Positions 5,145 through 6,896 of a stretch of 6,896 nt of DNA are shown one piece after another. The notes under the pieces were generated by a model. The model ran no database searches, was not told the origin of the DNA, and worked only from the letters and a program-made list of their open reading frames with translations. The position numbers were made by a program, and so were the translations under genes. The DNA comes from an uncultured Phascolarctobacterium sp. (lineage in GTDB: Bacteria > Bacillota > Negativicutes > Acidaminococcales > Acidaminococcaceae): the NCBI GenBank assembly GCA_900553055.1, contig USBV01000084.1:1-6896 (forward strand), in the 5' to 3' direction. The first letter of the stretch is position 1. Each line of letters starts with the position of its first letter.

Positions 5145-5885
5145 ATGGATTTATATAATTTAACATTAGCCGGGCTCATCATCTTCATCGGCTCCTTCTT
5201 TGCAACTGTGTCCGGCTTTGGCTTCGCCCTCGTGGCCACGCCGCTATTAGCGATGATTATGCCTGTGAAGTGGGCCATCATTTTCATCCTAGTGCTCACT
5301 GTGGTGCTGCGCATCCTAACTATGTGGCGGGTGTGGGGCGAATTTAATTGGAAAACTGTGGCCTTGACTAGCATTGGCAGCTTCGTGGGCATGCTGCCGG
5401 GCAGTAAGGTACTGCACTTTATTTCCATCACCCATCTGCAAATTTTCTTGGGAGTGGTGCTGCTTTTGGCAACAGCGCTGATGAGCCTGCAGTACACGGT
5501 GCCAATTAAAAACAAAACTGCAGGCCGCTTGGGAGCTGGCATTTTGAGCGGCTTTTTTGGCGCCTGTACCAGCGTTAGTGGCCCGCCTCTGGTGCTTTAT
5601 TTTCTCAACGAGCGCACCGATAAAACCGAGATGCGCGCCAACATGATTTGGATTTTTGGCGTGACCGGCGTGCTCATGGTGGGTGCCAGCTATTGGGCTG
5701 GCAATATTGGCACCGTGGGGGATTGGAGCTATCTTTATAGCATGATTCCCGCCACCTTTATCGGTGTGCTGGCTGGCGAGCGCATGTTCCGATACCTTAA
5801 CCAGCACCTTTTCCGTAGGCTGTCCTTAATGATTGTTCTCGTTGGCGCGGTGATGATGCTGTTTAATGGAATAAGAGAATTGTAA
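5145..5885 (+). CDS. TauE/SafE (TSUP) family membrane transporter
   Basis: The TSUP family comprises membrane proteins proposed to export or take up sulfite, sulfoacetate, thiosulfate or related organic anions; substrates are known for only a few. The protein has 246 residues and is almost entirely hydrophobic, with about eight predicted helices in two halves. Each half carries the repeated family motif: GFGFALVATPLLAMI at 24-38, and GILSGFFGACTSVSGPPLVL at 132-151 followed by YFL. A charged loop, NERTDKTEMRANMIW (155-169), follows the second motif as is usual. The start is ATG 5145. The nearest Shine-Dalgarno-like run, GAAGAGGGG (5124-5132), is 12 nt away, longer than ideal, but an upstream TTG start at 5097 would fall inside the terminator hairpin. 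The gene stands between two transcription units, and no clear promoter is visible in the 39 nt after the terminator. Early codons use ATC, TTC and CTC more than the neighbours do. The substrate cannot be assigned. Confidence 0.88.
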   Translation: MDLYNLTLAGLIIFIGSFFATVSGFGFALVATPLLAMIMPVKWAIIFILVLTVVLRILTMWRVWGEFNWKTVALTSIGSFVGMLPGSKVLHFISITHLQIFLGVVLLLATALMSLQYTVPIKNKTAGRLGAGILSGFFGACTSVSGPPLVLYFLNERTDKTEMRANMIWIFGVTGVLMVGASYWAGNIGTVGDWSYLYSMIPATFIGVLAGERMFRYLNQHLFRRLSLMIVLVGAVMMLFNGIREL

Positions 5886-5903
5886 CCTCCGTTACACTTT
5901 TGT
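5881..5903 (+). terminator. Weak terminator candidate after the TSUP gene
   Basis: A 6-bp stem, TGTAAC (5881-5886) with GTTACA (5891-5896), around a CTCC loop overlaps the stop codon and is followed by CTTTTGT. The stem is short and the T tract interrupted, so termination would be inefficient. It is the only terminator-like structure between the TSUP gene and the next promoter. Confidence 0.3.
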
Positions 5904-5931
5904 CAGAAAAAGCAAAAATGAAACAAAAGTG
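5895..5931 (+). repeat. 9-bp perfect inverted repeat upstream of the leader promoter
   Basis: CACTTTTGT (5895-5903) and ACAAAAGTG (5923-5931) are exact inverted copies separated by 19 A-rich nt. The repeat ends 11 nt before the -35 box of the DAHP synthase promoter. It could be an operator for a dimeric regulator or a loose hairpin belonging to the upstream gene. It lacks a T tract, which argues against a normal terminator. Confidence 0.45.
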
Positions 5932-5942
5932 CAAAATTCTGC

Positions 5943-5971
5943 TTGACGGCATAAAGCGGTAGCAGTAAAAT
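5943..5971 (+). promoter_or_regulatory. Sigma-A promoter of the leader-DAHP synthase unit
   Basis: TTGACG (5943-5948, 5 of 6 consensus bases) and TAAAAT (5966-5971, 5 of 6) are separated by exactly 17 nt. Transcription would start near 5978, about 43 nt before the leader ORF and about 305 nt before the synthase start. It is the best-matched promoter in the window. Confidence 0.75.
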
Positions 5972-5979
5972 TATTCTAA

Positions 5980-5995
5980 TCGCTGAATATAGCGA
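5980..5995 (+). other. 5'-end hairpin of the leader transcript
   Basis: TCGCT (5980-5984) pairs with AGCGA (5991-5995) around a 6-nt loop. TAAT (5977-5980) and ATTA (6000-6003) offer alternative pairing just outside. It lies at the predicted transcript 5' end and upstream of the leader Shine-Dalgarno, so a role in protecting the RNA end is possible. Confidence 0.4.
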
Positions 5996-6020
5996 AAAGA
6001 TTATTTTGCAGGTGAATATA

Positions 6021-6152
6021 ATGGATTCTATCAAAATGAACACTGCAATTGAATACGGCTTTTATTATGCACCGGTCTTTAGCTATTACTTTAGCACCGG
6101 TTATTTGGCATGTAAAAAAGTATATGGCAGTGAACGTAATAGAAGCCTTTAA
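6021..6152 (+). CDS. Tyr/Phe-rich leader peptide (43 aa) of the DAHP synthase attenuator
   Basis: This is a regulatory ORF inferred to sense charged tRNA-Tyr and tRNA-Phe rather than to make a functional protein. It runs from ATG 6021 to TAA 6150, behind AGGTG (6010-6014) at 6-nt spacing. Residues 12-28 read YGFYYAPVFSYYFSTGY: six Tyr and three Phe in seventeen positions, with a seventh Tyr at 35 and no Trp anywhere. The Tyr codons are at 6054, 6063, 6066, 6084, 6087, 6102 and 6123; the Phe codons, all TTT, are at 6060, 6078 and 6090. The clusters fall at residues 12-16 and 20-24. A strong terminator begins 37 nt after the stop codon, and the next gene is DAHP synthase, which fits amino-acid-starvation attenuation of aromatic synthesis. 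The alternative is a small membrane or secreted peptide, since the middle is hydrophobic; the position between promoter and terminator favours a leader. A second ATG at 6036 lacks a ribosome-binding site. Confidence 0.8.
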   Translation: MDSIKMNTAIEYGFYYAPVFSYYFSTGYLACKKVYGSERNRSL

Positions 6153-6195
6153 TAGTATTTGTATATACACCTTCACAATGCTTTTTAAGCAGGCT
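6054..6195 (+). promoter_or_regulatory. Alternative RNA pairings of a transcription attenuator
   Basis: Drawn by hand, three mutually exclusive pairings are possible. 1:2 pairing: GGCTT (6057-6061) in the first Tyr/Phe cluster with AAGCC (6143-6147), plus CTATTAC (6083-6089) over the second Tyr pair with GTAATAG (6136-6142); the two helices are nested. 2:3 antiterminator: 6144-6152 with 6185-6195, nine pairs with a 2-nt bulge (6189-6190), using the leader stop region and the terminator 5' arm. 3:4 is the terminator. A ribosome stalled at Tyr or Phe codons would break 1:2 and permit 2:3 (readthrough). One reaching the stop codon would cover segment 2 and allow termination. Segment 2 (AGCCT, 6144-6148) repeats part of the terminator 3' arm (6205-6209), as exclusivity requires. 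Energies were not computed. Confidence 0.5.
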
Positions 6196-6217
6196 CTTTT
6201 ACGGAGCCTGTTTTTTT
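6187..6217 (+). terminator. Leader terminator (attenuator) before DAHP synthase
   Basis: CAGGCTC (6190-6196) pairs perfectly with GAGCCTG (6204-6210) around a 7-nt loop, followed by seven T's at 6211-6217. AAG (6187-6189) can extend the stem into the T run. Its place, after a leader ORF and 67 nt before the next start codon on the same strand, marks it as a conditional terminator rather than an operon end. Confidence 0.88.
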
Positions 6218-6251
6218 ATAGCAAAATTAATCTTGGAATATCTTTAACCGG

Positions 6252-6269
6252 TTCTACGAGGAAGTAGAA
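6252..6269 (+). other. Small hairpin just upstream of the DAHP synthase ribosome-binding site
   Basis: TTCTAC (6252-6257) and GTAGAA (6264-6269) form a perfect 6-bp stem with loop GAGGAA. The Shine-Dalgarno AGGAG (6273-6277, 7 nt from ATG 6285) begins 3 nt later. The loop itself is Shine-Dalgarno-like. The hairpin may keep the real site open or set the 5' end of a processed mRNA; no function is demonstrated. Confidence 0.4.
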
Positions 6270-6284
6270 AAAAGGAGAGATTTT

Positions 6285-6896
6285 ATGGTAATTGTATTCA
6301 AACCAGGAGCACCCGAGGACAGTAAAGCAAAAATGAAAGCCAATCTGGAGCGTCAGGGCTTCCAGATTAACGAAATTAATGGCGTGAACATGACCATTTT
6401 TGGCATTATCGGCGATACCAGCGCCTTAGATATGAACATGCTGCGCATTGATGACGCCGTGGAAAAGGTTATGCGCGTGCAGGAGCCCTTTAAGCGTGCT
6501 AATCGCGCCTTTCATCCTGATGACAGCGTTATTAACGTAGCTGGCGTACCCATTGGTGGGCGCAAAATTCAGGTTATCGCCGGTCCTTGCTCTGTTGAAA
6601 GCGTGGAGCAGATTATTGAGGTTGCAAAATCGGTGAAGCTGGGCGGCGCTAGTTTGCTGCGCGGCGGCGCCTTCAAGCCTCGCACCTCTCCGTACTCCTT
6701 CCAAGGCTTAAAGGAGCTGGGCTTGGATTATCTCAAGGCGGCGCGTAAGGAAAGCGGCCTGCCGATTTGTACCGAAATCATGTCCGCCGACAAGATTGAG
6801 CGCTTTGTTGAAGACGTGGACTTGCTTCAGGTTGGCGCCCGCAACATGCAGAACTTTGAGCTTTTAAAGGAATTGGGCAAAACCAATAAGCCCATT
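6285..6896 (+). CDS. aroF: DAHP synthase, type I-beta with N-terminal regulatory domain, 3'-truncated
   Basis: The enzyme condenses phosphoenolpyruvate with erythrose 4-phosphate to 3-deoxy-D-arabino-heptulosonate 7-phosphate, the entry to chorismate, Phe, Tyr and Trp. The start is ATG 6285 behind AAAGGAGAG (6271-6279). The first 204 residues are visible and the gene runs off the window; Thermotoga-type relatives have about 338. Residues 1-70 (MVIVFKPGAPEDSKAKMKA; TIFGIIGDTS; VEKVMRVQEPFK) match the ferredoxin-like domain that mediates Tyr/Phe feedback inhibition in the Thermotoga maritima enzyme. FHPDDSVI (76-83) links to the barrel. Catalytic signatures are IAGPCSVE (98-105, metal-ligand Cys102), LRGGAFKPRTSPYSFQG (125-141, PEP-contacting Lys131 and Arg133), TEIMSADK (163-170) and QVGARNMQNF (182-191, Arg186). 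It is expressed through the attenuator leader upstream. The symbol varies by genome (aroF, aroG or aroA); the enzyme class is certain. Confidence 0.94.
   Translation, partial: MVIVFKPGAPEDSKAKMKANLERQGFQINEINGVNMTIFGIIGDTSALDMNMLRIDDAVEKVMRVQEPFKRANRAFHPDDSVINVAGVPIGGRKIQVIAGPCSVESVEQIIEVAKSVKLGGASLLRGGAFKPRTSPYSFQGLKELGLDYLKAARKESGLPICTEIMSADKIERFVEDVDLLQVGARNMQNFELLKELGKTNKPI

Follow-up and report, generated by a model that had tools for sequence, protein, structure and literature searches.

The segment at positions 6021-6217 of the window (the whole 6,896-nt stretch of uncultured Phascolarctobacterium DNA that was analysed) is, by its anatomy, very probably a classical ribosome-mediated transcription attenuator that makes transcription of the following DAHP synthase (DAHPS) gene depend on how much charged tRNA-Tyr and tRNA-Phe is available. 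The grounds for this reading come from sequence and comparison: a conserved open reading frame (ORF) rich in Tyr and Phe codons, RNA arms which stay complementary although their letters differ between leaders, and a hairpin resembling a terminator. A broader proposal, to which we give an even chance, is that the window carries one member of an old and widespread leader regulon that reads the charging of Tyr, Phe and often Trp tRNAs; this regulon would control DAHPS, aroA, aroK, aroE and tyrA in Negativicutes and Clostridiaceae, would replace T-boxes, and would use its aromatic codons a second time as an arm of the RNA switch.

Predicted leader, terminator and RNA arms in the window

All features described here lie on the forward strand. 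The leader peptide ORF (MDSIKMNTAIEYGFYYAPVFSYYFSTGYLACKKVYGSERNRSL) spans 43 codons at 6021-6152, ends in the stop codon TAA (6150-6152) and is conserved in relatives; it holds 7 Tyr and 3 Phe codons, nine of these ten within residues 12-28, and the Shine-Dalgarno sequence AGGTGA (6010-6015) stands 5 nt upstream of its ATG. A hairpin scan and a fold z-score both predict an intrinsic terminator, hairpin plus T run, at 6187-6217. Its core consists of CAGGCTC (6190-6196), the loop TTTTACG and GAGCCTG (6204-6210), which together give a 7-bp stem located 37 nt past the leader stop and followed by seven T's (6211-6217); the hairpin scan lengthened the stem to 11 pairs (6187-6213). The fold of 6160-6217 has a z-score of -4.34, a value reached by none of 200 shuffles. 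Both elements had been described in an earlier note made from the letters of the window, and the sequence agrees with it on every point, from the Shine-Dalgarno sequence and the 7:3 ratio of Tyr to Phe codons to the length and spacing of the hairpin. A sigma-70-like promoter for the leader transcript, TTGACG-17-TAAAAT, is predicted at 5943-5971 by a promoter scan; since three promoter-like sites were seen in the 601 nt scanned where 1.6 are expected, this call is weak when taken alone.

The putative controlled gene, at 6285-6896 and cut by the window end, encodes a type I-beta DAHP synthase with a ferredoxin-like domain according to family, domain and structure matches, in line with the earlier claim that a DAHP synthase gene follows the leader. 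Its best subfamily is PRK08673, scored below that model's cut-off with the gene incomplete at the window end; the ferredoxin-like domain DAHP_snth_FXD (PF18152) is present, and the best solved relatives include 1rzm and 3pg9, which we take to be the DAHP synthase of T. maritima. DAHP synthases of the class with this domain are inhibited by Tyr and Phe. The closest named relative of the protein, at 76% identity, is encoded on an uncultured Phascolarctobacterium contig (L001), and identity reaches 95% within the order, so that a host in the Acidaminococcaceae (Negativicutes) is likely. Directly upstream of the leader, the window encodes a TauE/SafE-family exporter (5145-5885), and a similar C-terminus lies upstream in L001, where a direct repeat of about 50 bases (about 1950-2060) also stands just upstream of the leader promoter region. 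Elsewhere in the window, a 70-aa ORF with a hydrophobic C-terminus lies between an ABC permease and nadD (1178-1390); it has no match in NCBIfam or Pfam.

Three RNA segments could form the switch. Arm 1 (GGCTTTTATTATG, 6057-6069) comprises codons 13-17, that is, Gly-Phe-Tyr-Tyr and the start of Ala, and is the predicted partner of arm 2 (CGTAATAGAAGCC, 6135-6147), which ends just before the stop codon and, from folds and anchored pairing, may pair with either arm 1 or arm 3. Arm 3 (GGCTCTTTTACG, 6192-6203) covers the 5' arm of the terminator plus the loop, and is predicted from the fold of 6098-6203 and a swap control to form an antiterminator with arm 2. In the minimum-energy fold of 5978-6222, arm 1 pairs with arm 2 over 13 consecutive pairs and the terminator is formed (z -5.08, reached by 0/200 shuffles); in the fold of 6098-6203, from which arm 1 and the 3' arm of the terminator are absent, arm 2 pairs with arm 3 (z -1.61, 13/200 shuffles). 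If arm 1 is left out while all letters are present, the terminator still beats the antiterminator at equilibrium, and the switch thus needs co-transcriptional timing.

We propose that under a shortage of Tyr or Phe the ribosome would stall at codons 12-28 and cover arm 1, leaving arm 2 to pair with arm 3; the terminator would then be blocked, and RNA polymerase would enter the DAHPS gene. With Tyr and Phe both plentiful, the ribosome would reach the stop codon and cover arm 2, and the terminator would form. Without translation, arm 1 would take arm 2, and transcription would end in this case too. The arm logic is that of the E. coli pheL-pheA and trpL attenuators (1:2, 2:3 and 3:4), which are proteobacterial and sense a single amino acid each.

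Conservation of the leader and of its pairing arms

The DAHPS query was matched in 62 of 63 Acidaminococcales genomes, several of them with a sole match that was weak and distant, and 75 regions upstream of DAHPS genes were taken from this order, the window included (L115 and L145 are one place). Leaders were scored by the number of aromatic residues (Tyr, Phe or Trp) in a 20-residue stretch, with a main threshold of at least 8. At this threshold a leader together with a terminator-like hairpin was found in 50 of the 75 regions, and three more regions score 7. Fourteen of the 25 regions outside the 50 precede the second gene of a DAHPS pair, tandem or neighbouring; a score-7 ORF before one such second gene (L110_1501) was judged spurious. 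Three upstream regions are cut by contig ends (L094, L108, L132), and two were missed by the ORF rule (L111, L131), their genomes (G017, G006) being matched by a peptide profile just upstream of DAHPS. No leader was found upstream of DAHPS in L118, L140 and L142, the last of which has a T-box motif. Tandem DAHPS pairs occur in L089, L090, L093, L095, L096, L098, L103, L109, L110, L112, L114, L117 and L125; in the tandem pairs of this order the leader stands before the first gene only, and the second gene has none.

Comparison of these upstream regions, which had been put forward earlier as a check, shows that start, stop and Tyr/Phe codons are kept while other codons drift. Across 53 aligned Acidaminococcales leaders, eight alignment columns are at least 80% aromatic. 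At Tyr/Phe positions in leader pairs, the residue is kept in 1048 of 1271 cases, exchanged for another aromatic residue in 125 and lost in 98; substitutions fall on codon positions 1, 2 and 3 in the numbers 578, 591 and 889, counted in pairs of 55-98% identity among which related pairs enter repeatedly.

The pairing of the arms was examined across leaders as well. When each sequence was compared with its own shuffles, the window duplex of arms 2 and 3 was reached by 20 of 100 and is not exceptional, while that of arms 1 and 2 was reached by 3 of 100; over 128 leaders, the level of at most 5 in 100 shuffles was attained by the 2:3 duplex in 33 and by the 1:2 duplex in 24. As this single-sequence test is noisy, an arm-swap control was used, in which related leaders are not independent. 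Here the pairing of a leader's own arm 2 with its own arm 3 beats the expectation from row and column means by 3.67 kcal/mol (0/5000 permutations, n=123), and the own arm 3 is within the best 5% for 43 of the 123 leaders. Own pairing of arms 1 and 2 is likewise better than expected, by 1.74 (0/5000), and is weak in Acidaminococcales taken alone (residual -0.35).

Within the Acidaminococcales, the start of arm 2 pairs with the terminator loop at five of five positions in 44 of 48 leaders, as against 571 of 4800 shuffled segments, and fails to do so in 4 of the 48; some of this pairing is built in by the anchor pattern, which required, close to the aligned column, either CG[TC][AG] or any of three variants. 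If any 5-mer in 21 nt is allowed to pair with the loop, the figures are 44/48 and 1418/4800 shuffled. The letters themselves change, with CGTAA, CGTGA, CGTAG and CGCGA among the arm 2 variants and TTACG, TTGCG and TTGTG among those of the loop. RNAalifold, run on the alignment of the 48 sequences (from which L116, L130, L141, L113, L110_1501 and identical rows are excluded), makes mainly the terminator visible. The place of arm 2 relative to the ORF differs, being within it in the window and directly after the stop codon in some relatives, L083 among them; this is an argument that the RNA is kept and not the end of the peptide. A further, core hairpin inside the Tyr/Phe codons is moderately supported: over 19 distinct arm pairs, 65% of cells are paired, a level reached by 4 of 5000 swaps.

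Folding was also done with the region under a ribosome masked. In the window, arm 3 was engaged at about 0.8 for a stall in the core, about 0.7 for a ribosome at the first codons, 0.44 for ribosome-free RNA and 0.4-0.5 for a ribosome at the stop. The means over 129 leaders were 0.66 for the core, 0.60 for early codons, 0.50 free and 0.40 at the stop, and a gain of more than 0.2 was seen for core over stop in 79 of the 129 and for core over free in 57. The gap between early and core masks is small, and the test is thus stronger evidence for the stop side of the switch than for its start side. The conservation of codons and the co-varying alternative RNA arms both support the leader-peptide attenuator mechanism that the earlier note had suggested.

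Distribution, candidate regulon and T-boxes

A wider set was formed from the best 80 of 582 loci, ranked by DAHPS protein similarity alone; 78 of these had 400 nt of upstream sequence. A score of at least 8 was found in 44 of the 78 DAHPS upstream regions; for regions preceding the other long ORFs of these loci the count was 5 of 389, and for shuffles 115 of 3900. The best 80 include records that their submitters titled Treponema, Brachyspira and Lentisphaerae; two Treponema loci (L049, L065) and the Lentisphaerae locus L073 have leader plus terminator, while the Brachyspira case is doubtful. Taking all sets together, a terminator-like hairpin follows 129 of 131 leaders scoring at least 7 (210 of 1310 shuffles), and a hairpin of -10 kcal/mol or stronger follows 114 of them (3 of 1310 shuffles). 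Motifs like a Shine-Dalgarno sequence precede 122 of the 131 leaders and 91 of 780 other ATGs of the same regions, a count that favours the leaders, for which any in-frame start before the core was allowed.

A profile built from 14 leader peptides was used for a six-frame search of 150 Negativicutes genomes (E <= 0.01), and matched at 70 places in 60 of them. Fifty-nine places lie before DAHPS genes, eight before genes of the aroA, aroK, aroE or tyrA type and one before a gene with an ACT-domain pair (Pfam PF19571), and two are without assignment. The 32 places that were inspected comprise 21 before DAHPS genes (all by blastp), two before aroA, three before a shikimate kinase gene, one before aroE, two before prephenate dehydrogenase-type genes, the ACT-domain-pair case and the two without assignment; the remaining 38 were placed by their coordinates, directly ahead of DAHPS matches. 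In NCBIfam the downstream aroA and aroE genes score above cut-off, while for the shikimate kinase and prephenate dehydrogenase genes these families are the best matches but fall below it. The three shikimate kinase cases are not independent, as leader and gene are nearly identical in all of them. Because the profile was built from DAHPS leaders, its 59 DAHPS places are partly expected, whereas the eight others are not; leaders before aroA, aroK, aroE and tyrA-type genes point to a small regulon for aromatic synthesis in Negativicutes. At the ACT-domain-pair locus (L235:1145-2179 and L235:2247-2681), a type I-alpha DAHP synthase gene of the aroFGH family adjoins on the opposite strand. Another locus (G063, contig C1, 1819900-1824800; L237) holds three copies of the leader, two before DAHPS genes and the third near DAHPS-like fragments with internal stops.

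In Clostridiaceae, the family of C. tyrobutyricum, the profile was matched in 93 of 146 genomes (E <= 0.01), a few of the weakest matches perhaps by chance. Thirty loci were examined, and a DAHPS gene of the window's type lies downstream of the leader in 27 of them by tblastn; one locus (L332) ends at a contig edge. At L324:161-1252 a type I-alpha DAHP synthase gene follows the leader, which is thus not tied to one type of DAHPS. The kinase-like ORF at L317, which by eye resembles a shikimate kinase, is left without assignment, as NCBIfam gives it only a weak homoserine kinase match below cut-off. A set for the phylum Bacillota contained 119 genomes, of which 99 had a DAHPS match and gave 90 loci. 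Leaders were present in 9 of the 30 better-matching loci, and no leader at a score of at least 8 was found in the 60 further genomes with lower DAHPS identity (L255-L314). This gives 9 of 90 overall at one locus per genome, and the system is therefore not general in Bacillota.

An Rfam search of 5880-6400 in the window gave no T-box (RF00230) among 8 matches up to E 10 and no amino-acid leader family at gathering score; for the latter families, there were also no matches in L001, L002, L007 and L009. Outside the Acidaminococcales set, a T-box motif, allowed up to 2 mismatches, is present in none of the 68 DAHPS regions that bear a leader and in 23 of the 123 that lack one (L007 and L173 being one place, and L001-L004 being assigned as leader-bearing by hand), and in 2 of 268 shuffled regions; within that set, the window included, it occurs in L142 only. 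The leader therefore looks like an alternative to the T-box at the same gene, and appears to go with a subset of DAHPS genes. Among 20 loci of other Bacillota scanned with Rfam, T-boxes precede DAHPS in L266, L298 and L303.

Rival readings and relation to known systems

The idea of a combined Tyr and Phe leader stands as far as the codon count is concerned, but may be too narrow, as relatives carry a Trp codon. In four close relatives (L089, L090, L101, L102) a Trp codon takes the place of the Cys codon seen in the window, a Trp codon lies in the core of 23 of the 28 leaders of L147-L199 and of 27 of the 53 Acidaminococcales leaders, and DAHPS supplies all three aromatic amino acids; on the other hand, the window itself has no Trp codon, and core Trp is found in only 11 of the 47 leaders of L005-L080. 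We regard it as a real possibility, somewhat short of an even chance, that Tyr, Phe and Trp codons all contribute to a pan-aromatic sensor and that the Trp codon was simply lost from the window. It is also possible, though we lean against it, that one amino acid, Phe or Tyr, is sensed in practice, since a stall would count only where it sets arm 2 free. A precedent is the aroR leader of C. glutamicum, which according to PMC11802643 contains Phe-Tyr-Phe and responds only to Phe; in the window, however, the mask test gave like results for stalls throughout codons 12-28, a stretch that holds codons of both types.

The remaining readings concern the mechanism. In the consensus, certain positions are held by the non-aromatic residues Ser, Gly, Ala, Cys and Lys, as would suit a nascent peptide arrested by a free aromatic amino acid in the manner of TnaC, without slow decoding. 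We consider this improbable, as these residues may in part reflect RNA, namely the core hairpin with its changing sequence, and as the position of arm 2 varies among leaders, from within the ORF to beyond its stop. Chance is an even poorer account: an equally dense 20-residue stretch of Tyr, Phe and Trp within an ORF did arise in 8 of 2000 dinucleotide shuffles of 5886-6284, and weak terminator-like hairpins are present in the 210 of 1310 shuffles given above, but a constitutive terminator beside which a Tyr/Phe-rich ORF merely happens to lie, or a small protein that has nothing to do with control, is very hard to reconcile with genome-wide specificity for aromatic genes and with the co-variation of the arms. 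As for a T-box or other riboswitch, such elements do precede DAHPS in the other Bacillota mentioned, but this candidate was ruled out for the window by the Rfam and motif scans, and the split of the motif between leader-bearing and leader-less regions makes it scarcely credible. We thus favour a ribosome-mediated attenuator.

Leader-peptide attenuation is usually taught for Proteobacteria. If our broader proposal is true, many Negativicutes and Clostridiaceae set the first step of aromatic amino acid synthesis by the decoding speed of Tyr/Phe codons, and the small ORFs ahead of their aro genes are explained. The leaders also form a natural series for asking how one peptide weighs two or three amino acids.

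The earlier note knew of no described Tyr/Phe leader of this kind, a claim to novelty that the literature does not support. PMC11802643 and PMC4046766 describe aroR-aroF of C. glutamicum, in which a leader containing Phe-Tyr-Phe precedes a DAHPS gene and ribosome stalling raises transcription. Compared by description, this system resembles the window in having a leader peptide with Phe and Tyr codons before a DAHPS gene, but it is actinobacterial, its F-Y-F is short compared to 10 Tyr/Phe codons, and only Phe is effective, Tyr availability having no effect in PMC11802643 despite the Tyr codon. PMC11802643 also names the E. coli pheL-pheA and trpL attenuators. PMC6429828, a study of five genomes including C. 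novyi, presents in the legend of its Fig. 6b two candidate uORFs that contain F and Y and belong to shikimate genes; by description these are like the window leader in their F/Y codons and in their genes, and could be its Clostridium form, although the text gives neither species nor gene list, arms or test for them. In PMC8632094, the uORFC-13-1 motif at aroF of Acholeplasma has a uORF coding for at least one Phe, and a terminator. In common with the window leader it has Phe codon(s) in its uORF and a terminator ahead of the gene, aroF, but its 24 sequences come from Acholeplasma and environmental sources only, again compared by description. Firmicutes his leader peptides, found at the his operon and at hisS/hisZ genes in PMC2965389 and PMC9413887, are similar in that regular leader peptides stand in place of T-boxes, and differ in their His codons and in the genes they precede. 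The accessible portions of PMC1262725, PMC2494555 and PMC4833913 hold nothing closer, and a literature search whose scope left out most subscription papers gave no description of a leader of the window type in Negativicutes. Given aroR, uORFC-13-1, the PMC6429828 uORFs and the Firmicutes his leaders, the leader described here is new and widespread but of a known kind: what is new is a described family of such breadth with a likely regulon, while the mechanism itself is one already known.
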